From Nonomuraea jiangxiensis (lineage in GTDB: Bacteria; Actinomycetota; Actinomycetes; Streptosporangiales; Streptosporangiaceae), in contig NZ_FNDJ01000019.1 in assembly GCF_900099965.1 (NCBI RefSeq), forward strand, positions 124,001 to 188,000: a stretch of 64,000 nucleotides of DNA. Reading direction: 5' to 3'. Below are positions 1 through 42,803 of this stretch, in pieces. How positions within the stretch are numbered: position 1 is the first letter of the stretch; every line of letters begins with the position of its first letter. The notes under the pieces were generated by a model that worked only from the letters and a program-made list of their open reading frames with translations, was not told the origin of the DNA and did no database searches. The position numbers and the translations under genes were made by a program.

Positions 1-827
1 GTGTCGTCGCTGTGCAGCACCTGACGGTGCATCACGCGTACGAGCGTGTCGGTCAGGTCGCGTACCGGCAGCGCCCGGTGCCGCCCGGTCAGCTCGACCA
101 GCTCGTCGAGCCCCGCGTTGAGGTCGCGGCGCGCCTCCACCAGCCCGTCGGTGTAGAACAGCACCAGCGTGCCGGGCGCCAGCAACCGCTCGGCGACGCC
201 GTCGCTGCCCGGCGCGGGGTAGCCGACGCCGCGCCCCCAGACCTCCAGGTAGGCGGGCGGCTCGCCGGGCTCGACGATCAGCGGTGGCGGGTGCCCGCCG
301 GTGACCACACGGAGCGTCCCCGTCCGCCGGTCGAGGCGGGCCACCAGTACGGTTCCCATCAGGTCCCGGTAGACCGGCTGGAGGATCGCGGCGGCCCGCT
401 CGATCAGGTGCTCCAGCGGCAGCCCGGCCAGGGCGAGCACGCGGATGGCGTGGATGATGTTGAGCGCGGCGCGGGTGCTGGCCACCCCGTGGCCGACCGC
501 GTCCACGACCACCAGGTGCAGGTCACCGCTCGGCATGACGACCACGTCGTAGAGGTCGCCGCCCGTCGGCGCGTCGTCCTCGGCCGGGGAGTAGTAAACC
601 GCGAGCTCCACCTGCTCCACCTGGGGGACCGGCGGGCGCAGCGCGTCCTCCAGCTCCCGGAAGATCGCCCGGTGCGCCCGGCGGAGCTGCTCGTCCCGTT
701 CCTCCAGCTCCACGACCAGGGCCAGCACGCCCTGGTTGGTGTTGGCCAGTTCGTCCTTGAGCTTGGCGAGCTCGTCCTCCAGCCGCCGGATCCGGTGCTG
801 CGCGGCGGTGTCCGTAACCGGCTCCAT
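1..827 (-). CDS. RsbU-like SpoIIE-family PP2C phosphatase, partial at left edge
   Basis: The frame opens at ATG 827 and runs off the window without a stop, giving 275 visible codons. Residues ~8-60 look like a charged coiled coil, followed by a SpoIIE/PP2C phosphatase domain with the metal-site signatures GGDLYDVV and VVVDAVGHGVAS and a late FYTDGLVEARR motif. Such enzymes dephosphorylate anti-anti-sigma or STAS proteins; in Bacillus, RsbU is switched on by RsbT released from the stressosome. The ATG shares a base with the upstream stop (TGATG), so it is the last visible gene of the rsb operon and probably translationally coupled. The output role is inferred from neighbours; no sigma factor or anti-sigma pair is visible. 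The C-terminus is missing. Confidence 0.88.
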   Translation of the reverse strand, partial: MEPVTDTAAQHRIRRLEDELAKLKDELANTNQGVLALVVELEERDEQLRRAHRAIFRELEDALRPPVPQVEQVELAVYYSPAEDDAPTGGDLYDVVVMPSGDLHLVVVDAVGHGVASTRAALNIIHAIRVLALAGLPLEHLIERAAAILQPVYRDLMGTVLVARLDRRTGTLRVVTGGHPPPLIVEPGEPPAYLEVWGRGVGYPAPGSDGVAERLLAPGTLVLFYTDGLVEARRDLNAGLDELVELTGRHRALPVRDLTDTLVRVMHRQVLHSDD

Positions 828-1801
828 CACCACTCCCTGAGCGCGACGATCGTCGCGTCATCACGGTAGCGCCGATGATCGCGTGCCAGCAGGCCCACGA
901 GCAACGGAGGAGCTTGGGTGAACATCCAGCCGCCCGCCGCACGCGACCAGCCGGGCGCGATCCCGTCGCTGTGCACCACCACGGTGGCCCCGGCCGGCAG
1001 CGGAGCGGTCTGGCGGCGGAACGGGGGGATGCGCAGGCCCAGCGTTCCCGGCTGCGGGGTCATCAGGACGGGCGGGCCGTCCCCGTCGAGCACCACCGCG
1101 TTCACGTTGCCCACCCCGCAGAACTCGACCTCGGCGGCGTCGCGGGGCAGCCGGACCGCCGTCGCGGCGGCTCCCCTGGTGTTCCTGAGCGCGGCGTGGA
1201 TGGCCTCCATGGCCTGCGGCAGGGGACGGCCGGGGTCGAGCAGGAACGCCTCGGTGGCCGACCGGCTGACCCGGGCCGCCTCCGCGCCCCGGCCGAGGCC
1301 GTCCACGACCAGGACGAGAGTGGCGTCGGCGGTCTCGACCAGCGTGTACGCGTCACCGCTGTGGTCCTCCCCCGCCGCGGGCAGCCGCAGCGTACCCGTC
1401 CGCGCGGCGGAAGGGGCGGCGCCGAACCGGGCGAAGATCGCGGTGCCGCGCCGCGGATGGGAGAAGATCCCGAACGTGGTGGCCAGGCGGCGCACCGCGC
1501 CCAGCCCGCTGCCCAGCGTGCCGGCGCTGCTGTAGCCGTCGGCCAGGCAGCGGGCGACGTCGTCCATGCCCGGCCCGCGGTCGAGGGCGAGCAGTTCCAG
1601 GCCGCCCACGGGTTCGGGCTGCACCAGCAGCACCCCGCCATGCGTGTGCTTGACGATGTTGCTGCTCAGCTCTGAGGCCGTCACGGCCGCCCGCTCCGTC
1701 AGCAGCGGCGTCAGGTCCAGCTCGCGGGCCGCCTGGCGGGTCACCGAGACGGCGTGGGCGATGGCGCTCTCGTGGTCGAGGCGTATCTCTGTGGTGATCA
1801 T
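827..1801 (-). CDS. Fused RsbT-like kinase / RsbX-like phosphatase
   Basis: A protein of 324 residues. The N-terminal ~130 residues are a GHKL ATPase of the RsbT/RsbW type, with the N-box ASELSSNIVKHTHGG and G-box LDRGPGMDD. Residues ~150-324 are a small PP2C domain like RsbX (LVLVVDGLGRGAEA, then VVHSDGI). In Bacillus RsbX resets the stressosome by dephosphorylating RsbS and RsbR; here kinase and phosphatase lie on one chain, which would couple switching and reset. ATG 1801 is chosen, two bases past the previous stop; a TTG at 1807 would add two residues. Such fusions occur in actinobacterial rsb clusters; the reset role is inference. Confidence 0.85.
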   Translation of the reverse strand: MITTEIRLDHESAIAHAVSVTRQAARELDLTPLLTERAAVTASELSSNIVKHTHGGVLLVQPEPVGGLELLALDRGPGMDDVARCLADGYSSAGTLGSGLGAVRRLATTFGIFSHPRRGTAIFARFGAAPSAARTGTLRLPAAGEDHSGDAYTLVETADATLVLVVDGLGRGAEAARVSRSATEAFLLDPGRPLPQAMEAIHAALRNTRGAAATAVRLPRDAAEVEFCGVGNVNAVVLDGDGPPVLMTPQPGTLGLRIPPFRRQTAPLPAGATVVVHSDGIAPGWSRAAGGWMFTQAPPLLVGLLARDHRRYRDDATIVALREW

Positions 1802-1803
1802 CC

Positions 1804-2229
1804 TCAACCCGCCCAGCGGGTGATCACCACTGTCGTGCCCTTGCCCGGCTCCGTCTCCAGGTGGAACTCGTGCACCAGCCGCTTCGCGCCGCCCAGTCCG
1901 TGACCCAGCCCGGGACCGGTGGAGAATCCGTCGACCAGCGCCTTCGCCGGGTCGGTGATGCCCGGACCGTCATCGGAGATCGTCAGCCGGAGCCCGGCGC
2001 GCGGGGGTGGGGAGAGGTGCTCGATCACCAGGTCGCCGCCCCCGCCGTGGACGTAGCAGTTGCGTACCAGCTCGCTCGCCGCCGTGATGAGCTTGGTCTG
2101 ACCGACGAGCCCGAATCCGGCCTGCAGCGCCGCGGCGCGTACGGCGTGCCGCGCGGTGAGCAGGTCGTCCTCGGCGCGAATGGGCAGCGAGCACACCTGC
2201 CCGTTCTTCACGAGTTTCCTATCCGACAC
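1804..2229 (-). CDS. rsbT: RsbT-like serine/threonine kinase (stressosome switch)
   Basis: A 141-residue GHKL-fold kinase. The N-box ASELVRNCYVHGGGG, G1 box ISDDGPGI and the GLGHGLGGAKRL loop are all intact, so ATP binding is expected. RsbT kinases phosphorylate RsbS and RsbR, leave the stressosome and then activate an RsbU-type phosphatase. The GTG start at 2229 is chosen because a GGGAGG ribosome site lies just upstream and the length then matches the family; it overlaps the end of rsbS by 11 bases. The order R-S-T is the classical one. Substrate identity is inferred from gene order and family. Confidence 0.9.
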   Translation of the reverse strand: MSDRKLVKNGQVCSLPIRAEDDLLTARHAVRAAALQAGFGLVGQTKLITAASELVRNCYVHGGGGDLVIEHLSPPPRAGLRLTISDDGPGITDPAKALVDGFSTGPGLGHGLGGAKRLVHEFHLETEPGKGTTVVITRWAG

Positions 2230-2593
2230 GCGATCCTCCCGGCGGAGCCAGCTTGTCCATGGCGTGTTCGACCGAGAGCGCCGTCTCCACACCTGGAAGG
2301 TCCAGCCCGAGCTCGACCAGGGTGATGGCCACCGGGTAACGCATCCCGGCCAGCACCACACGCGCCCCCAGCAGCCGCGCCATGGTGGCGATCTCCACCA
2401 GGATCCGGGCCGCGAAGGAGTCGATGATCTCCAGCTTCGTGATGTCGAGGACGACCGCCTCCGCTCCGATGGCACTGACCTGATGGCTGAGCTCGTCGGC
2501 GAAGCGCAGGGCGGTCTTGTCGTCCAGTTCGTTGGACAGTCCCGCCAGCAGCACCTTGCCGAGCCGCAGGATCGGTATCTCTGATGAGTTCAT
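2219..2593 (-). CDS. rsbS: RsbS-like STAS-domain scaffold protein
   Basis: A 124-residue single STAS domain. The motif LEIIDSFAARILVEIA carries the serine after Asp that is the RsbT phosphorylation site in RsbS, so the switch residue is kept. RsbS and RsbR co-assemble into the stressosome core and hold RsbT until stress triggers phosphorylation. The ATG overlaps the rsbR stop (ATGA), implying coupled translation and balanced stoichiometry. The family call is firm; the activating signal is not visible. Confidence 0.92.
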   Translation of the reverse strand: MNSSEIPILRLGKVLLAGLSNELDDKTALRFADELSHQVSAIGAEAVVLDITKLEIIDSFAARILVEIATMARLLGARVVLAGMRYPVAITLVELGLDLPGVETALSVEHAMDKLAPPGGSRVG

Positions 2594-3480
2594 GAAACGT
2601 TCAGCAGCGTGCTCTCGTCTCGGGCGTCCTGTGCCGGGGTGTCGCCGACCATGCGGATGGCAGCGGTCAGCGCGTCCGCCAGGGACGAGCGGGTGATGAT
2701 CTCCGAAAGGTCGATGCCGAGCCGCGCGATCATCTGGGCGATCTGCGGGCGGATGCCACTGAGGATGCAGTCGGCGCCCATGAGCCTGGTCGCCGCCACG
2801 GTCTGCATGAGGTGCTGGGCGACCGCGGTGTCCACGGTCGGTACGCCGGTGATGTCGATGATCGCCACGGCGGCCTCGTTGTCCTGGATGGCCTGCAGGA
2901 GGCTCTCCATGACGATCTGAGCCCGCGCGCTGTCGAGCGTGCCGATGAGCGGCACGGCGAGCACCCTGTGCCAGAGCCGTACGACAGGGGTGGAGATCTC
3001 CAGCAGCTGCCGGTTCTGGCGCTGGATGATCTCCTCTCGGCTGTCGACGTACGTCTGGAAGGTGAGCAGCCCGGCCCCGTCGAGCAACCGGTGAACGAGC
3101 TCCGTGGCCTCCAGTCGCAGCTCGGGATCCGGGATCCCGTCGGCCAGCACCCGCACGCACGCGTCCTTGAGCGCGAAGATCGCACCCGCGATGGCCGTCG
3201 CCGAGACGCCCAGCCTGGCCCACCGATGGGAGAAATCGGTCACCGCGTTTCTGAGCGGCGCGAAGCCGGTCACCACGCGATCCAGGGGCATCGTGGCCGC
3301 CAGCCCCTCGTACAGGCCGGCGATGATGGTGTCCACCTCCTCGCGAAGTTCGTCAGCATTGACCGCGCCCGCGGATGCTAGCCTGCTCTCCTGCGCCTCG
3401 ATCCAGGCGGCCGCGATCTGGTCGCGATGCTCGCCAAGGATGCGCACGATCTCCTCTCTCGCACGCTCTCTGCCCGACAT
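2590..3480 (-). CDS. rsbR: RsbR-like stressosome sensor protein (RsbRD + STAS)
   Basis: A 296-residue protein. Residues ~1-155 form an all-helical RsbRD-type sensory domain; a linker helix leads to a C-terminal STAS domain (~160-285). The first phospho-acceptor region reads DITGVPTVDTAVA, matching the T171 region of Bacillus RsbR. The second, normally GIRPEIAQT around T205, reads GIRPQIAQM here, so that threonine is replaced by methionine. GGAGG lies four bases before ATG 3480. It heads a minus-strand operon and is divergent from another SpoIIE phosphatase. Loss of the second threonine may alter how strongly the stressosome is shut down. Confidence 0.9.
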   Translation of the reverse strand: MSGRERAREEIVRILGEHRDQIAAAWIEAQESRLASAGAVNADELREEVDTIIAGLYEGLAATMPLDRVVTGFAPLRNAVTDFSHRWARLGVSATAIAGAIFALKDACVRVLADGIPDPELRLEATELVHRLLDGAGLLTFQTYVDSREEIIQRQNRQLLEISTPVVRLWHRVLAVPLIGTLDSARAQIVMESLLQAIQDNEAAVAIIDITGVPTVDTAVAQHLMQTVAATRLMGADCILSGIRPQIAQMIARLGIDLSEIITRSSLADALTAAIRMVGDTPAQDARDESTLLNVS

Positions 3481-3504
3481 GGAACCTCCACACCACCGGG
3501 TTAG

Positions 3505-3518
3505 TTGTCGTCCGACAA
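3505..3518. promoter_or_regulatory. Candidate operator, TTGTCG-tc-CGACAA
   Basis: A perfect 6-bp inverted repeat with a 2-bp centre in the AT-richer gap between divergent rsbR and the 3610 phosphatase. TTG...CAA ends are common in MarR-family sites, and a MarR gene closes the rightward operon, so autoregulation is plausible. This is inference. Confidence 0.4.
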
Positions 3519-3609
3519 ATATATAAGATCATGACGCCCATTGACGTCGGAGTTATTTGCTATCGTGCAAATGTTTGGCGCATCCTGCGCTGAGAGAAGA
3601 GGTCATCCG

Positions 3610-4815
3610 TTGGGCAGCATCCCCGAAGGGCTCCACGCCGTGCAGCAGGCCATGCACGCGGCTCGGCCCTATGCCGTCGTGGAGGCGCTGCGCGACGCGG
3701 TGACTCTGCACTTCGCCGTGGAGCAGGTCGAAGTGCTGCTGGCCGACTATGCCCTGGTCACCCTGCGTCCCGTGCTGATAGAGCTGGCGCCGGGGGCGCG
3801 CGGGGTCGCCATCGACGGCACCCCCGCCGGCCGGGCCTTCGCCGCCCAGTCAGCGCAGGTGGAAGACCGCATGCTCTACCTACCCGTCAGCGCGTGCGGC
3901 GAACGGATCGGCGTGCTCAGCCTGCGCTTCGCCGAGCCGCCCGGCGCGGCGGCCGTGGAGGAGCTGCAGGAGATCGCCACCGCGCTCGGCCACGCGCTGC
4001 GCGGGGCCGACCTCATCACCGACCGTTACCAGCGGGTCCGCCGCATGTCCCGGCTCACGCTCGCCGCCGAGATGCAGTGGGGTCTCCTGCCCGGCTGCGG
4101 GCACCAGGGCGACGGCTACCGGCTGGCCGGTCAGCTGGAGCCCGCCTACGCGGTGTACGGGGACAACTTCGACTGGACGTGCGGACCACGCTGGCTCGCG
4201 CTGTCGGTCACCGACGGCATGGGCGCGGGCATGGATGCCGCCCTGCTCACCACGCTCGCCATCACCGCCCTGCGCAACGCCCGCCGCTCTGGCGCGGATC
4301 TGGAGGAGCAGGCCGGGCTGGCGGACGAGGCCATCTACGCCCAGTACGGCGGCCGCATGCACGTCTCGACGCTGCTGCTGAGATTCGACGCCACCACCGG
4401 CGAGGCCGCCATGGTGGACGCCGGATCGCCCAGAGTGCTGATCATGCGCGGCGGGCAGGTCCGCCAGATCGAGCTGGAACAGCAACTCCCGCTCGGCATG
4501 TTCGGCAACACCACCTACACTGAGCAGCACCTCCGCCTTGAGCCGGGCGATCGGCTCATCGTCGCCAGCGACGGCGTCCACTCCTCCCGGTCCTCCGACG
4601 GCACCACATTCGGTGGATCGCCGCTGGAGAGCCTGGTGAAGTTGACCCGCATGCAACCCGCCGACGAAGCGGTACGCACGATGATCCGCGGACTGCTGGA
4701 CTTTCGGCGCGGCATGGAAGTGCTGGATGATGCGGTGGTGGTATGTCTCGACTGGACGCCGGACCCCGCCGTGGGACCGGCGCCATCCGGGACAGCCGGG
4801 CGAGATCGCCCATGA
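3610..4815 (+). CDS. GAF-like / SpoIIE-family PP2C phosphatase
   Basis: A soluble 401-residue protein. The first ~165 residues form a GAF-like sensor region (LYLPVSACGERIGVLSLRF is typical of GAF strands), then a helix and a SpoIIE phosphatase domain with GDNFDW, SVTDGMGAGMDAA and IVASDGVHSS. TTG 3610 is preferred because AGAGAAGAGG sits eight bases upstream; a TTG at 3541 in frame lacks a ribosome site and overlaps the promoter region. It is divergent from rsbR, so it may supply a second phosphatase output for the same stress pathway. The first metal motif reads GDNFDW rather than GGDWYD, a mild deviation. Confidence 0.85.
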   Translation: MGSIPEGLHAVQQAMHAARPYAVVEALRDAVTLHFAVEQVEVLLADYALVTLRPVLIELAPGARGVAIDGTPAGRAFAAQSAQVEDRMLYLPVSACGERIGVLSLRFAEPPGAAAVEELQEIATALGHALRGADLITDRYQRVRRMSRLTLAAEMQWGLLPGCGHQGDGYRLAGQLEPAYAVYGDNFDWTCGPRWLALSVTDGMGAGMDAALLTTLAITALRNARRSGADLEEQAGLADEAIYAQYGGRMHVSTLLLRFDATTGEAAMVDAGSPRVLIMRGGQVRQIELEQQLPLGMFGNTTYTEQHLRLEPGDRLIVASDGVHSSRSSDGTTFGGSPLESLVKLTRMQPADEAVRTMIRGLLDFRRGMEVLDDAVVVCLDWTPDPAVGPAPSGTAGRDRP

Positions 4816-28258: not shown

Positions 28259-29206
28259 TCAGGGGTGGTCGGGGGTGGCGTGGTCCTCGTCGAAGATGTC
28301 GCCGGCCGAGATCACGATGCGGGGGTCCGGGACGCCGACGACGTCATGGTCCTTGTTGTCGTAGTCGAAGAGGCTGAGCACGTGGCGCATGGCCTCCAGC
28401 CGGGCGCGCTTCTTGTCGTTGCTCTTGATGACGGTCCACGGCGCGGACTCGGTGTCGGTGTGCAGGAACATGTCCTCCTTCGCCCGGGTGTACTCGTCCC
28501 ACTTGCTCAGCGAGGCCAGGTCCATCGGGGACAACTTCCACTGCCGTACGGGATCGACCTGGCGGATGATGAACCGGGTGCGCTGCTCGGCACGCGAGAC
28601 CGAGAACCAGAGCTTGACCAGGTGCAGACCCGATTCCACCAGCAGGTTCTCGAAGCGGGGCGCCTGCCCGATGAACTCCTGGTATTCCGCCTCGGTGCAG
28701 AAGCCCATGACCCGCTCCACCCCGGCCCGGTTGTACCAGGAGCGGTCGAACAGCACCATCTCCCCGTTGGCCGGCAGGTGGGCGATGTAACGCTGGAAAT
28801 ACCACTGGCCGCGCTCGCGCTCGCTCGGCTTCTCCAGCGCCACCACCGTCGCCCCGCGCGGGTTGAGGTGCTCCATGAAACGCTTGATCGTGCCGCCCTT
28901 GCCCGCCGCGTCCCGGCCCTCGAACAGCACCACCAGCCGGCGGCGGGTGTCCTTGATCCAATATTGCAGCTTCAGCAGTTCGATCTGCAGCAGTCGCTTG
29001 TCACGCTCGTACTCGTCGCGGGGCAGGCGTGAGTCGTACGGGTAGTGCTGGCGCCAGGTGTCGACCGGGTGGCCGTCGGCGCGCATGAGCACCGGATCGT
29101 CGTCGTCACGGTCGTCCACCCACAGTCCTGGGGTGATGTCGAGCAACTGGCTGTGCTGGGCGGCCTCTGGATCGAGCAAAACCGGCTTAACCTGAGAGCT
29201 GGTCAT
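28259..29206 (-). CDS. ppk2: Polyphosphate kinase 2
   Basis: A 315-residue PPK2. The P-loop is VLFEGRDAAGKGGTIKRF (~94-110) and the Walker B/lid region VLFDRSWYNRAGVERVMGF follows near 150; WKLSPMDLASLSKWDEYT is also a family mark. PPK2 enzymes use polyphosphate to phosphorylate nucleoside mono- or diphosphates or run the reverse. A long N-terminal extension (~60 residues) precedes the core. ATG 29206 overlaps the old reading-frame end of the PiT-associated small gene (ATGA), so it was probably translated as part of a PiT-PPK2 operon. Confidence 0.92.
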   Translation of the reverse strand: MTSSQVKPVLLDPEAAQHSQLLDITPGLWVDDRDDDDPVLMRADGHPVDTWRQHYPYDSRLPRDEYERDKRLLQIELLKLQYWIKDTRRRLVVLFEGRDAAGKGGTIKRFMEHLNPRGATVVALEKPSERERGQWYFQRYIAHLPANGEMVLFDRSWYNRAGVERVMGFCTEAEYQEFIGQAPRFENLLVESGLHLVKLWFSVSRAEQRTRFIIRQVDPVRQWKLSPMDLASLSKWDEYTRAKEDMFLHTDTESAPWTVIKSNDKKRARLEAMRHVLSLFDYDNKDHDVVGVPDPRIVISAGDIFDEDHATPDHP

Positions 29207-37746: not shown

Positions 37747-38961
37747 TTGGTTCATTTCACGGGAGATCCGGCACGGGAGTGGCCGGAGACCCTCGACGTG
37801 GCGGCGATGCTGGCAGGCGGCTGGCGCCCTCAACCCTTCCGCCAGTTCCTGCTCAAGGTGCACAGCCGGTGCAACCTGGCCTGCGACTACTGCTACGTCT
37901 ACACCCTGGCCGACCAGAGCTGGCGCTCGCGGCCCATGGCCATGACGCCCGAGCTCGTCGCCACGGCCGCCCGGCGCATCGCCGAGCACGCGCACCACCA
38001 CGGCCTCGACTACGTCCGGATCATCCTGCACGGCGGCGAGCCGCTGCTGGCCGGGCACGACTACCTGGGCAAGATCGTGGAGATCGTCCGGTCGGAGACG
38101 GGCGACCACCCTCGGGTGGAGGCGTCGGTGCAGACCAACGCGGTCCTGCTGACCGAGCCGGCCCTGCGCTCCTTCGCGGAGCTGGACGTGAAGGTGGGGG
38201 TCAGCCTCGACGGCAACCGGCGGGCCAACGACCGCAACCGGCGCTACGCCGACGGGCGCGGCAGCTACGACGCGGTGGCCGCGGCGCTGGAGTTGCTGAT
38301 GAGCCCGGCCTACCGCGCGTTGTACGGCGGGCTGCTCTGCACGATCGACCTGTCCAACGACCCGCTGGAGACCTACGAGGCGCTGGTCGCGTTCGAGCCG
38401 CCGGTGATCGACTTCCTGCTGCCCCACGCGACCTGGGACTCCCCGCCGCCGGGCCGGCCCGGCGACCAGAGCGAGCCGCTGTACGGCCGGTGGCTCACGA
38501 AGATCTTCGACCTCTGGTACGACACGGCGGACGCGCCCGTCGTACGGATCTTCCAGGAGATCGTCCAGCTCCTGCTGGGCGGCGCCTCCAGGAGCGAGGC
38601 CGTGGGGCTGACGCCGACCAGCCTGATCGTGATCGAGACGGACGGCACGATCGAGCAGACCGACTCGCTCAAGGCGGTGGGCCACGGCGCCCCGGCCACC
38701 GGCCTCAACCTCGCCGAGCACTCCCTCGACGCCGCCCTCCGCCACCCGGGGATCGTGGCCAGGCAGCTCGGCTGGGACGCGCTCAGTGACACGTGCAAGG
38801 GCTGCCGGTTCAGCCGCGTCTGCGGCGCGGGGCTCTATCCGCACCGCTATCGCGCCGGCACCGGATTCCTGAACCCGTCGGTCTATTGTGCGGACCTCTA
38901 CTGGTTGATCGAGCACATCAGGGCACGCCTGGTCTCGGACCTGCGCCGGTCCTCCGTCTGA
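37747..38961 (+). CDS. fxsB: FxsB-type radical SAM/SPASM cyclophane-forming maturase
   Basis: A 404-residue radical SAM enzyme. The 4Fe-4S motif is CNLACDYCY (Cys42, 46, 49), preceded by the FxsB mark FRQFLLKVHSR; the SAM-binding ILHGGEPLLAG follows. The C-terminal SPASM-type cysteines are C350, C353, C359 and C381 (CKGCRFSRVCGAG ... YCADLY). FxsB enzymes cross-link an aromatic side chain to a nearby residue in FxSxx-COOH peptides, giving cyclophane RiPPs. TTG 37747 is the best start although its ribosome site is weak. Its peptide substrate is most likely the 51-residue gene at 42942. Confidence 0.88.
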   Translation: MVHFTGDPAREWPETLDVAAMLAGGWRPQPFRQFLLKVHSRCNLACDYCYVYTLADQSWRSRPMAMTPELVATAARRIAEHAHHHGLDYVRIILHGGEPLLAGHDYLGKIVEIVRSETGDHPRVEASVQTNAVLLTEPALRSFAELDVKVGVSLDGNRRANDRNRRYADGRGSYDAVAAALELLMSPAYRALYGGLLCTIDLSNDPLETYEALVAFEPPVIDFLLPHATWDSPPPGRPGDQSEPLYGRWLTKIFDLWYDTADAPVVRIFQEIVQLLLGGASRSEAVGLTPTSLIVIETDGTIEQTDSLKAVGHGAPATGLNLAEHSLDAALRHPGIVARQLGWDALSDTCKGCRFSRVCGAGLYPHRYRAGTGFLNPSVYCADLYWLIEHIRARLVSDLRRSSV

Positions 38962-38971
38962 AGGGAGCCTC

Positions 38972-40279
38972 ATGGATCTGCGACCGCACCGATTACCGGA
39001 CGACGTGCTGTCGCGGCTGGGAGCCGGCGGCGGCGGGGGCCGGGCGATGCGGGCCCTGACGGCGGCCGAGGAGAGCAAACACCGGCTGCTGGTGTTCGCC
39101 GTGGCCGACCTGGCCCCGTCCGAGCCGGTGCGGCGCGCCTTCGACGTGCTCACGCGCGTCGAGAAGAGCCATCGCGAGGTGGTGCGGGATGTGTTGCGGC
39201 ATCCGGCCGTCGGCGCCTGGGCGAAGCGCACCGTCCACGAGTTGCAGCGCGGACGCGACGGAGGGCCGCGCGGGTCCGCCCAGCTCGGGGCGGTGGCCGC
39301 GGTCGCGGCGGCCAGGGCGGGGGTCGAGTGCCGGATCGAGGTCCCGGCCTGGCGGGGGACGGTCATGCTGCCCTCCCTCGGGCAAATCTCGCTGCGCGAG
39401 CCGGTGTCCGGACCGGTGGAGCTGCGCGTACGCGCCGGTGGAACGGCGGAGGCGGCCGGGCTGAGCTTCACCGCGGCGCCCGCGGTGGTGAACGGGCGCG
39501 GAGACGCGGAGGGCGGGCCGCCGCCTGCGGGGTGGGAGCCGCTGCACCGGATCTCCGTGGCCGGGCCGAGCCTCCTCGTGGACGACCTCGACCCGTTCCG
39601 GTGGGATCCGGCGACCGCCACGGACGACCGCCTGGCTCCGGCCGAGCTGCGCCACTGGCGCGACTGCCACGCCGCCGCCTGGGACCTCCTGACCGCCCAT
39701 CACTGGACGATCGCCGAGGAGGTCGCCGCGGCCGTCTCGGTGCTCACCCCCATCAAGGGGCCCGAGCACGGGCAGAACAGCGCCTCGGCCCGCGACAGGT
39801 TCGGCACGGTCGCCATGTCCACCCCGCCCGACGGGCGCTGGCTCGCCTCCACGTACGCGCACGAGGTCCAGCACGCCAAGCTCGGCGCCGTCCTGGACGT
39901 CGTCGAGCTCGTACGCCCCGACGCCAGGCGCTACTACGCTCCTTGGCGCGACGACCCCCGCCCCCTGCCGGGCCTGTTGCAGGGCGCCTACGCCTACCTG
40001 GGCGTGGCCGGCTTCTGGCGGCGGCAACGCGAGTACGACCCGGACCGCAGGCCGCACATCGAGTTCGCCCGCTGGCGGCGCTCGGCCTTCGAGGTGACCG
40101 GGACGCTGCTGGCCAGCGGTGCGCTCACCGGGCCCGGGGAGGAGTTCGTGACGCGGATGCGGGGCACGCTGTCGGCCTGGCAGGACGAGCCGGTGCCGGC
40201 CTCCCTGCGGGCCGCCGCCCGGGAGGAGGCCGACGCGCATCATCGGGCCTGGGTGGCCAGGAACGGCCTCACAGGGTGA
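38972..40279 (+). CDS. HExxH-type (alpha-ketoglutarate) peptide beta-hydroxylase
   Basis: A 435-residue protein whose only strong motif is the metal site YAHEVQHAKLGAVLDVVEL (His297, Glu298, His301) in the C-terminal half, matching the HExxH proteins found beside FxsB genes and annotated as alpha-ketoglutarate-dependent peptide beta-hydroxylases. The N-terminal ~150 residues include helical LTAAEESKHRLLVFAVADL. AAGGGAG precedes ATG 38972, ten bases after fxsB, so the two are co-transcribed. It likely hydroxylates the same precursor. The gene ends overlapping fxsT by 11 bases in convergent orientation. Confidence 0.78.
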   Translation: MDLRPHRLPDDVLSRLGAGGGGGRAMRALTAAEESKHRLLVFAVADLAPSEPVRRAFDVLTRVEKSHREVVRDVLRHPAVGAWAKRTVHELQRGRDGGPRGSAQLGAVAAVAAARAGVECRIEVPAWRGTVMLPSLGQISLREPVSGPVELRVRAGGTAEAAGLSFTAAPAVVNGRGDAEGGPPPAGWEPLHRISVAGPSLLVDDLDPFRWDPATATDDRLAPAELRHWRDCHAAAWDLLTAHHWTIAEEVAAAVSVLTPIKGPEHGQNSASARDRFGTVAMSTPPDGRWLASTYAHEVQHAKLGAVLDVVELVRPDARRYYAPWRDDPRPLPGLLQGAYAYLGVAGFWRRQREYDPDRRPHIEFARWRRSAFEVTGTLLASGALTGPGEEFVTRMRGTLSAWQDEPVPASLRAAAREEADAHHRAWVARNGLTG

Positions 40280-42803
40280 GCGGGTCGAAGTCCCAGTCGA
40301 TCCGCCGGTCCGCCTCGACCCGAACCCGGTCGGGGTGGTCGTGCCGGAATGTGGCGAACAGCGCCCTGGTGCGCGCGTGCAGCTCCTTGGCCTGCTCCAG
40401 GGCGCCGGTGGCCCGCAGGTCGTGCGCCAGGTTGTTGCCCGCCGAGAGCGCGAGCACGTGTCGCTCGGTGAAGTGGACCCGCACCTGCTCGTAGGTGCGC
40501 TCGCCCAGCCGGCGGGCCTCGGTGAACTCGCCCAGGGCCGCGAGGTCGCCTGCCAGGTTGACGGCGGCGGCGAAGGTGAGCTCGTGGCGCTCGCCCAGCT
40601 TGTCGCACAGCCACTCGTAGGTGTCGATGTCCCGGCGGCGCGCTTCGGCGGCGTCTCCGCGCAGCCGGTAGAGCAGGGCCAGGTTGATCTCGCACCCGTA
40701 CAGGAAGGGGTGCTGCTTGCCGAAGGCCGCGCGGTATCGCGGCAGCACCTCGCTGGTGAGCGCGAACGCCCGGTCCAGGTCGCCCATCTCACGCACGGTG
40801 TTGGCCAGGGCGATGGTGGCGGCCATGGTCTCGGGGTTGTGCGGGCCGTAGAACTTCTCCAGCCGTGCCAGCGTCTCCTCCGCCAGCTCCAGCGACTCGG
40901 CCAGATCGCCGTGCCGCCGCTTGGCGATGGACAGGTCTCTCGCCGTCATGAGCGTGAGGATGTGCTCGACCTCCAGCTCCTTGCGGCCGTAGGAGTAGGC
41001 CTCCTCCCCGAGGTCGACGGCCTCGGCGTAGTCGCCGCAGAGGCGCACGATCCGGGCCAGGCCGTTCCATGAGATCTGGACGTCCCACTTCCCGACGCCT
41101 TCGCTGGCGTTGCTCTGCTCCAGGAAGGCCAGCCGCTGCTTGACGCGGGCCTTGTCGTATTCGCTCAGCAGGGCATGGTCGAGCGCCAGGTTGTTGATCA
41201 CGCGGATGGTGGCCGGGTGGTCGTCGCCGAACAGCTCGGTGTGCGCCTCCAGCAGCGCGGTGTCGCGCTCGAAGGCGCCCCTGAAGTCGCCGAGGCCGCG
41301 CAGGTTGGCGGCGTAGTTGAGGCCGACGCGCAGGGTCTCCTCGTGGCGCTCCCCGAAGTCGGGATGGGCCTGCATCAGCTCCAGCGTGCGCCTGTTGAGC
41401 CTGCGGGACTCGGCGTATTCGCCGAGCTGCCACAGCACGGTGCCCAGGTGCCGCTGCAGGCGCACGACGTGCCGGTCCTCCTGCCCGGAGTCCTCGATCC
41501 AGGTCGTGAGGAACTCCTCGGCGAACGTCCGCGCCGAGGCGAGCGTGCCCTGCCGGTAGAGGTATCTGACGATGTTGATGGCGAACTCGCGTACCTGCGG
41601 GTCGTGGCTCCTGGCCAGTCCGGAGGGGCGTACGTGCGGGACGAGATCGCTGTAGGCGCGCCACTTGGTGTTGTCCTCGGGGTCGGGCGGCGCGGCGCTG
41701 GCCATCAGCCGGTGGACCTCGTTCTTGACGGCCTGGCGGCCGGCAGGGTCGAGCGAGTCGCGCAGCAGCGCCTGCACCAGCCGGTGGACCTGGACGGTGC
41801 GCACCTCCTGCTCGACCTTGATGAGGGCGAACCGGCCCAGGGCCGCGAACGCCTGGTTGAGCATGACGGGGTCGGCCAGGATCGACTGCATCATGTCGGC
41901 GCTGCCCTTGCTGCCACGGCGGAAGACGTCGCGGGGGATCGGGTTGGGCCCGAAGAAGGCCAGGCACCGCAGCACGTCGCCGGCCTCGGGCAGCTTGCCC
42001 TCGACCGCCTCCACGGACAGCTGCCAGGCCGCCGTCATCGACACCGGGTATTCGGTCGACTTCCCCATCGACAGCAGGTCCCTGGTGCGTACGTCGAGTT
42101 GTTCGATGTACTCCTCGACGGAGATGCCCGTCTGGTCCTGCAGGGCGGCCGCCTGCTCCAGCGCCAGCGGCAGGTCACCGAGCGCCTCGGCCAGGCGGTC
42201 GGCCTCCTTCTTGTCGACCTCGCGGCCCAGGCGCCTGTTGAGGAAGGCGATGCTCTCCTGACGGGCGAAGACGTCGACCTGCACGGTCTGAGCCACCGCG
42301 CTCCACCGGTTGTTGCGCGAGGTGATGAGGACGTGCCCGGGACCCCCGTCGGGGATCATGTCCCTGATCTGCTCGGGCTCGTCGGCGTTGTCGAAGATCA
42401 GTAACCACCGGTCGTAGGGCTCGCCCCGTTGCAACGCCTCGCGTACGGAGGCGGCGGCCTCCTCGATGCCGACCACGGTCGCCGGCCGCAGACCGAGCCC
42501 CTCGGCGAGCCCGGCCAGGGAGCTCGGCACAAGTTCGGCCTGATCGGCAGTGATCCACCACACGATGTCGTATTTGTCACGATATTGCCAGGCATATTGG
42601 ATGGCGAGCTGGGTCTTGCCCACGCCACCGAGGCCGTGCAGGGCCTGGGGCACCAGTGCGGCGCTCGTGCCCGTCGTGAGGCTCTCGCGCAGCCGGGCGA
42701 GAATCTCGCTGCGGCCGGTGAAGTTCTTGTTCTGGCCTGGGATGCGCTTGCCCCAGATGGCGGGCAGACGCGCCGCCGGCCGTGAGGTGATCCGCTCGTC
42801 CAC
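40269..42803 (-). CDS. fxsT: FxsT: NB-ARC/TPR STAND protein of the FxSxx-COOH system
   Basis: An 844-residue STAND NTPase. After the mark NKNFTGRSEILARLRE the Walker A is HGLGGVGKTQLAIQYA (57-64 core), Walker B RWLLIFDNADEPEQI near 135, and GLPLAL-like LGDLPLALEQAAALQ follows. From ~400 onward come many TPRs (ALLEAHTELFGDDHPATIRV; ETMAATIALANTVREMGDL). The arrangement matches proteins named FxSxx-COOH system tetratricopeptide proteins. NB-ARC proteins switch on by oligomerising after ligand binding; which ligand is unknown, but a modified peptide is attractive. GTG 42803 follows GAGGAGG. Divergent from the precursor gene. Confidence 0.88.
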   Translation of the reverse strand: MDERITSRPAARLPAIWGKRIPGQNKNFTGRSEILARLRESLTTGTSAALVPQALHGLGGVGKTQLAIQYAWQYRDKYDIVWWITADQAELVPSSLAGLAEGLGLRPATVVGIEEAAASVREALQRGEPYDRWLLIFDNADEPEQIRDMIPDGGPGHVLITSRNNRWSAVAQTVQVDVFARQESIAFLNRRLGREVDKKEADRLAEALGDLPLALEQAAALQDQTGISVEEYIEQLDVRTRDLLSMGKSTEYPVSMTAAWQLSVEAVEGKLPEAGDVLRCLAFFGPNPIPRDVFRRGSKGSADMMQSILADPVMLNQAFAALGRFALIKVEQEVRTVQVHRLVQALLRDSLDPAGRQAVKNEVHRLMASAAPPDPEDNTKWRAYSDLVPHVRPSGLARSHDPQVREFAINIVRYLYRQGTLASARTFAEEFLTTWIEDSGQEDRHVVRLQRHLGTVLWQLGEYAESRRLNRRTLELMQAHPDFGERHEETLRVGLNYAANLRGLGDFRGAFERDTALLEAHTELFGDDHPATIRVINNLALDHALLSEYDKARVKQRLAFLEQSNASEGVGKWDVQISWNGLARIVRLCGDYAEAVDLGEEAYSYGRKELEVEHILTLMTARDLSIAKRRHGDLAESLELAEETLARLEKFYGPHNPETMAATIALANTVREMGDLDRAFALTSEVLPRYRAAFGKQHPFLYGCEINLALLYRLRGDAAEARRRDIDTYEWLCDKLGERHELTFAAAVNLAGDLAALGEFTEARRLGERTYEQVRVHFTERHVLALSAGNNLAHDLRATGALEQAKELHARTRALFATFRHDHPDRVRVEADRRIDWDFDPLTL

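Follow-up and report, generated by a model that had tools for sequence, protein, structure and literature searches.

The rsbR, rsbS and rsbT genes at the start of a 64,000-nt stretch of Nonomuraea jiangxiensis DNA (contig NZ_FNDJ01000019.1; the whole stretch is called the window here) very probably encode an RsbRST stressosome. They are followed by a gene for a fusion of an RsbT-like ATPase domain to an RsbX-type phosphatase, which we term TX and which marks a stressosome class that is widespread but little described. The gene after TX carries an N-terminal TN-x-G helix that is a candidate docking site for RsbT. In the window, rsbR, rsbS, rsbT, TX and an rsbU-type phosphatase gene form a run of five minus-strand genes in which neighbours overlap or abut (Table 1). 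An earlier note on this DNA had recognized the stressosome module as complete, with two phosphatases and a fusion of RsbT to RsbX, and this description is borne out by gene content, gene order and Pfam domains. Loci and genomes are cited below by L- and G-numbers.

The SpoIIE domain of TX (PF07228) scores above its Pfam cut-off, and a HATPase_c_2 match (PF13581) reaches 23.4 bits, below the cut-off of 27.4. By sequence, the phosphatase half is closest to Moorella MtX (3zt9) and Bacillus subtilis RsbX (3w40), and its model fold (mean predicted local distance difference test score 75.6) also matches these two structures. The RsbX and MtX chains, unlike TX, are without an RsbT-like domain. Conservation over 55 sequences indicates that the E and N of the TX ATP site and the metal-site residues are retained.

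Half of a 150-genome sample of the order (75 genomes) matches TX at E <= 1e-20, mostly over nearly its whole length. A sample of the phylum gives 28 matching genomes among 396 at E <= 1e-12, many of them through a standalone RsbX or a single domain only. TX is also found in Pseudomonadota, in an Acidimicrobiia metagenome-assembled genome and in Deinococcus, and its closest named relative is a Nonomuraea protein with 79% identity (single-protein scan of genome contigs, 7 loci). Most of the loci that were read have the gene order R-S-T-X; the exceptions include L143, in which no RsbX was found, and L249, a Paraburkholderia locus with a TX-like match and no RST genes found nearby. A TX match is present in 101 plasmid records, and six of the seven read have R-S-T-TX, four of these six with the helix. 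Public names for the protein are 'ATP-binding SpoIIE family protein phosphatase', 'anti-sigma regulatory factor' and 'ATP-binding protein'. No title or abstract start returned by a literature search describes the fusion; subscription stressosome reviews, which were outside the reach of the search, may describe it.

A conserved helix in the gene after TX

A T-N-x-G-type stretch was detected by pattern scan in 50 of 65 loci. Across 11 aligned phosphatase and kinase outputs it has nine invariant columns (E, L, T, N, G, V, A, L, L), and the core of the helix can be written TN-x-GV-x-AL. Eleven stretches from the loci identified in this study, the window's included, served to build a profile (A1). 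In each of four genomes it has one significant place, which is in the gene after TX, and all other matches have E > 0.05. The possibility that the helix is a general histidine-kinase linker was rejected on the basis of this single place per genome in the four genomes, and because the helix also precedes GAF and PPM domains. The motif is doubled, with a spacing of 18 residues, in many output kinases (L107-L116 and other loci of the order). The literature search found no paper containing the helix letters and no title or abstract start describing the helix.

In the order sample, 74 of the 150 genomes have the helix, and all 74 have TX on the same contig and strand, with the helix 27-909 bp downstream (median 519); the sole TX genome without a helix is G521, whose contig ends inside TX. 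In the phylum sample, 11 of the 12 helix genomes (among 396) have a TX match. A search of Pseudomonadota that was blind to TX recovered the helix in 15 of 349 genomes, 14 times directly after TX, where one of the 14 (G545) had supplied a profile sequence; the 15th match is the weakest (E 4.2e-4). Among the loci read, the helix is present in 70 of 71 TX loci (the miss is a contig end) versus none of the 10 loci whose RsbX stands alone or was not found, counts in which 13 of the TX loci had been discovered via the helix and 11 sequences had trained the profile.

The known dock for RsbT is the RsbU_N domain. Pfam searches covered outputs from 10 of the 71 TX loci and from eight of the 10 loci that lack the fusion; RsbU_N scores above its cut-off in six of the latter eight (not in L139 or L142) and in none of the 10 TX outputs. 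The TX outputs instead have PPM with or without GAF, HisKA with or without a receiver, or a GAF-GGDEF-EAL-receiver arrangement, and the helix is retained across phosphatases, histidine kinases and one GGDEF-EAL protein. In the window, SpoIIE is the sole Pfam domain at E <= 0.01 in the full 287 residues of the rsbU-type phosphatase, and RsbU_N (PF08673) has no match in this protein or elsewhere in the 11.8-Mb host genome. Genomes with RsbU_N (12/246 and 6/249) are not among the helix genomes, in samples that overlap only partly. A TxRG motif common to RsbU_N outputs was considered and rejected: RG lies just past the domain in several actinobacterial outputs and not in most readable Pseudomonadota, the correct frame being displayed for only part of the 23 loci checked.

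Some outputs carry an RsbT-like domain of their own. It is of full length and fused ahead of the helix in L209 and L212-L215, and many actinobacterial output kinases have a weak, partial RsbT-like domain before the helix. The pMP1 plasmid of Deinococcus radiodurans R1 (L244, 4185-9990) carries R-S-T-TX together with a kinase in which an RsbT-like domain and the helix are present, which is the L209 architecture, and these genes are annotated merely as STAS, anti-sigma and ATP-binding proteins. We see an even chance that the TN-x-G helix is a second recognition element, independent of RsbU_N, by which released RsbT (or TX) activates cyclic-di-GMP enzymes as well as phosphatases and histidine kinases in a stressosome class that spans at least three phyla, and that in some species an RsbT-like domain has become fused to the helix in cis.

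Residues known to matter for RsbU binding suggest which protein the helix might contact. According to the available text of PMC12143880, the RsbT of B. subtilis binds both RsbU_N and the RsbU linker, with RsbT R19 and R23 implicated in RsbU binding. The same text reports that RsbU T89A, G92E/R and Q94L suppress a binding mutant, and that stimulation is lost with RsbU R91E and is restored in part by RsbT D92K. By the residues named there, the RsbU linker reads T-L-R-G, as compared with T-N-x-G in the helix, where x is often R, and in the window Q. So short a likeness may serve as a lead and is not taken as homology. The equivalents of R19 and R23 are both Arg in the RsbT of all 71 TX loci, and the D92 equivalent is D in 65 and E in six. 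Both contact arginines are found together in none of the 71 TX ATPase domains; the window's TX has Val and Arg. Because the contact arginines are kept in RsbT and not in TX, RsbT is favoured as the ligand and TX as a reset enzyme.

The helix might instead dock the RsbT-like half of TX, which would then couple the reset state of the core directly to the output enzyme. The helix does track the fusion and not RsbT, which loci with standalone RsbX also have, and the TX ATPase domain keeps the ATP-site E in 69 of 71 cases and the N in 68. Absence of the arginine pair from every TX domain, set against its presence in every RsbT, makes this alternative improbable. Rather unlikely as well is the idea that the helix is merely a structural coiled-coil linker or dimerization element co-inherited with TX, while RsbT signals by other means, such as phosphorylation of the output. 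Heinz et al., in the accessible part of their paper (PMC9237108), suggest that downstream kinases are phosphorylated in an RsbT-dependent manner. Co-inheritance of the operon with few output swaps on the tree fits a linker, as do helix-free outputs in Rhodobacterales, but a generic linker would need neither nine invariant columns over unrelated enzyme types nor a significant match at just one place in each of the four genomes checked.

Several observations weigh against the helix as a dock for RsbT. Two Rhodobacterales plasmid loci, Phaeobacter L247 and Salipiger L248, have R-S-T-TX and a helix-free next gene, an output kinase in which an RsbT-like domain is present. In G369, the twelfth helix genome of the phylum sample, the helix match is weak (E 1.7e-7) and TX is absent from the neighbourhood. 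The co-occurrence may in part be plain operon inheritance, as the identified phosphatase outputs fall in one 16-locus group of the core tree. The R91 equivalent is Q in the window and variable elsewhere, and the model of the RsbU-type phosphatase is of low confidence. The gene in G369 (L217, 4992-7241) encodes a helix-type phosphatase with the degraded motif SDQG in place of TN-x-G, possibly a relic left after loss of the core genes.

If the helix is an RsbT dock, then the operon could work as follows. RsbR and RsbS would form a core that holds RsbT, as is established for these families. Under stress, RsbT would phosphorylate RsbR (Ser184 and Thr218) and RsbS (Ser59) and then leave the core, again by analogy with the established families. 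Free RsbT could bind the N-terminal TN-x-G helix of the downstream phosphatase and order it as a coiled-coil dimer, and this would switch the phosphatase on, replacing the RsbU_N of B. subtilis. The phosphatase might then dephosphorylate an RsbV-type STAS protein and so free a SigB/F-type sigma factor encoded elsewhere. TX would be the reset arm, in which the RsbT-like half docks on the core and the RsbX half strips the phosphates. The mechanism as a whole, with the helix as RsbT dock, stands in our estimate evenly between right and wrong. If true, docking of RsbT on the helix addresses a gap in published stressosome work (Heinz et al.). The helix is conserved, is encoded by the gene after TX in enzymes of several types and is nearly absent from the rest of the checked genomes, so RsbT docking is directly testable, and D. 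radiodurans R1 is a tractable test organism.

Phosphorylatable positions of RsbR

The earlier note had placed a Met at the usual second phospho-threonine of RsbR and proposed that the fused RsbX-like domain replaces the control lost there. In alignment to Protein Data Bank (PDB) chains, this residue (Met250, in GIRPQIAQM) lies opposite Listeria RsbR T241, which is not a phospho-site. The phospho-sites of Listeria RsbR are T175 and T209, as given in the accessible text of PMC6614362 and PMC12154155, and in the chain numbering these are the Thr of GTIDTER and the Thr of VDT. PDB chains 9o3o and 9o5l have A and E at the Thr of GTIDTER, matching the T175A and T175E structures in the available part of PMC12154155. 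Both phosphorylatable STAS positions of B. subtilis RsbR, T171 and T205, are filled here, by Ser184 and Thr218. The alignment thus shows a threonine at the position equivalent to the second phospho-threonine, the outcome that the note had named as refuting its reading.

Column counts over TX and non-TX loci lead us to reject a link between the fusion and the Met. In 70 TX loci, the first site (T171 position) is S in 69 and T in one, the second (T205 position) is T in 61 and S in nine, and the IAQ-x residue is T in 65, M in three and A in two; these counts include L124, whose fusion reads in two frames, and exclude L042, a near-copy of L041 that was also left out of the tree. The 10 loci whose RsbX stands alone or was not found have S (eight), Q (one) or A (one) at the first site and S (six), K (two), H (one) or Q (one) at the second. 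In this sample, non-phosphorylatable T205 equivalents therefore occur only in operons without TX (4/10), the reverse of what the note predicts. These four are real second-site losses, with Lys, Lys, His and Gln in the RsbR of L135, L138, L143 and L144, respectively. Because all 70 TX loci keep Ser or Thr at the T205 position, the fusion replaces no phospho-site control.

The Met itself is real and is common to three relatives, having arisen once on the tree (in the window, L040 and L106); L126, sister to these three, has Thr. With Thr218 as the phospho-site and Ser or Thr accompanying TX throughout, there is next to no chance that a second phospho-threonine was lost and its control taken over by the RsbX-like domain. 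Met250 is incidental. The accessible text of PMC6614362 describes a Listeria RsbR loop at 237-251, which contains T241, as gating T209, and one might speculate that Met250 affects the Thr218 site indirectly through such a loop. The case illustrates a phospho-site misassignment that is easily made by eye.

Gene content of the window

Table 1. Features of the window discussed in the text.
Feature	Position	Strand	Description
rsbR	2590-3480	-	RsbRD_N sensor domain (PF14361) and STAS (PF01740), both above Pfam cut-off
RsbR Ser184	2929-2931	-	equivalent of Listeria T175 and B. subtilis T171
RsbR Thr218	2827-2829	-	equivalent of Listeria T209 and B. subtilis T205
RsbR Met250	2731-2733	-	not a phospho-site
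rsbS	2219-2593	-	single STAS; phospho-serine equivalent Ser59 (2417-2419)
rsbT	1804-2229	-	GHKL-type switch kinase; PF02518 and PF13581; GTG start; overlaps end of rsbS
TX	827-1801	-	RsbT-like ATPase domain and RsbX-type phosphatase; Pfam, 3zt9 and 3w40 matches
rsbU-type phosphatase	1-833, start near 833	-	SpoIIE domain; gene end 30 bases outside the window
TN-x-G helix	633-803; TNQG 729-740	-	N-terminus of rsbU-type phosphatase; candidate RsbT dock
Divergent phosphatase	3541-4815	+	SpoIIE type, by Pfam

Ser59 of RsbS aligns with the phospho-serine of Listeria and B. subtilis RsbS, and RsbT retains the E and N of its ATP site. The divergent gene upstream of rsbR encodes a protein with SpoIIE alone by Pfam. 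A similar gene (E <= 1e-67) directly precedes rsbR in nine of 64 other loci (L040, L106, L128, L129, L130, L133, L136, L156 and L162), and in all nine the helix gene matches the window's output phosphatase. The divergent phosphatase therefore probably belongs to the module.

The five-gene operon has no rsbV, rsbW or sigB. A SigB/F/G model has 24 matches genome-wide (E <= 0.001) and none in the window, in agreement with the earlier observation that no sigma-B-type factor is visible there. The note had also suggested that the genome be checked for cognate factors. Three SigB/F/G-type genes, candidate targets of the module, score above cut-off, all on other contigs. One of them (L002) has a STAS gene on one side and on the other an ATPase gene that by eye resembles an anti-sigma factor.

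Elsewhere in the window, an FxSxx-COOH-type peptide-maturation cluster (37747-42803) encodes an FxsB-family radical SAM enzyme (TIGR04269), an HExxH beta-hydroxylase-domain protein (TIGR04267) and an FxSxx-COOH TPR protein (NF040586). A polyphosphate kinase 2 family protein (TIGR03707) is encoded at 28259-29206.

Comparison with known stressosomes

On Streptomyces and Salipiger plasmids, the protein annotated as 'ATP-binding SpoIIE family protein phosphatase' is the TX fusion itself. This name ties it neither to the stressosome nor to RsbX, and the D. radiodurans gene is called an anti-sigma regulatory factor.

The module resembles the RsbRST, RsbX and RsbU system of B. subtilis and Listeria in its RsbR, RsbS and RsbT, which have Ser or Thr at the phospho-positions, in its RsbX-type phosphatase and in its PPM output phosphatase. 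It differs in the fusion of RsbX to a second RsbT-like domain, in an output without RsbU_N, in the absence of rsbV, rsbW and sigB from the operon, and in having Ser at the T171 position. In the four-gene rsbRSTX modules of Gram-negative bacteria, of the Vibrio vulnificus type, as described in the accessible text of PMC9237108, X likewise comes right after R-S-T and is followed by varied outputs, most of them without RsbU_N. RsbX is described in that text as a single-domain phosphatase, unlike TX, and the TN-x-G helix is not mentioned in it. The MtR-MtS-MtT-MtX system of Moorella thermoacetica provides the closest sequence match to the phosphatase half of TX. There, however, the MtX chain (3zt9) has 193 residues and no ATPase domain, and the output is an RsbU_N-GGDEF protein according to the available part of PMC12143880. 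Moorella and the window nevertheless have in common a stressosome that is wired to a different enzyme.

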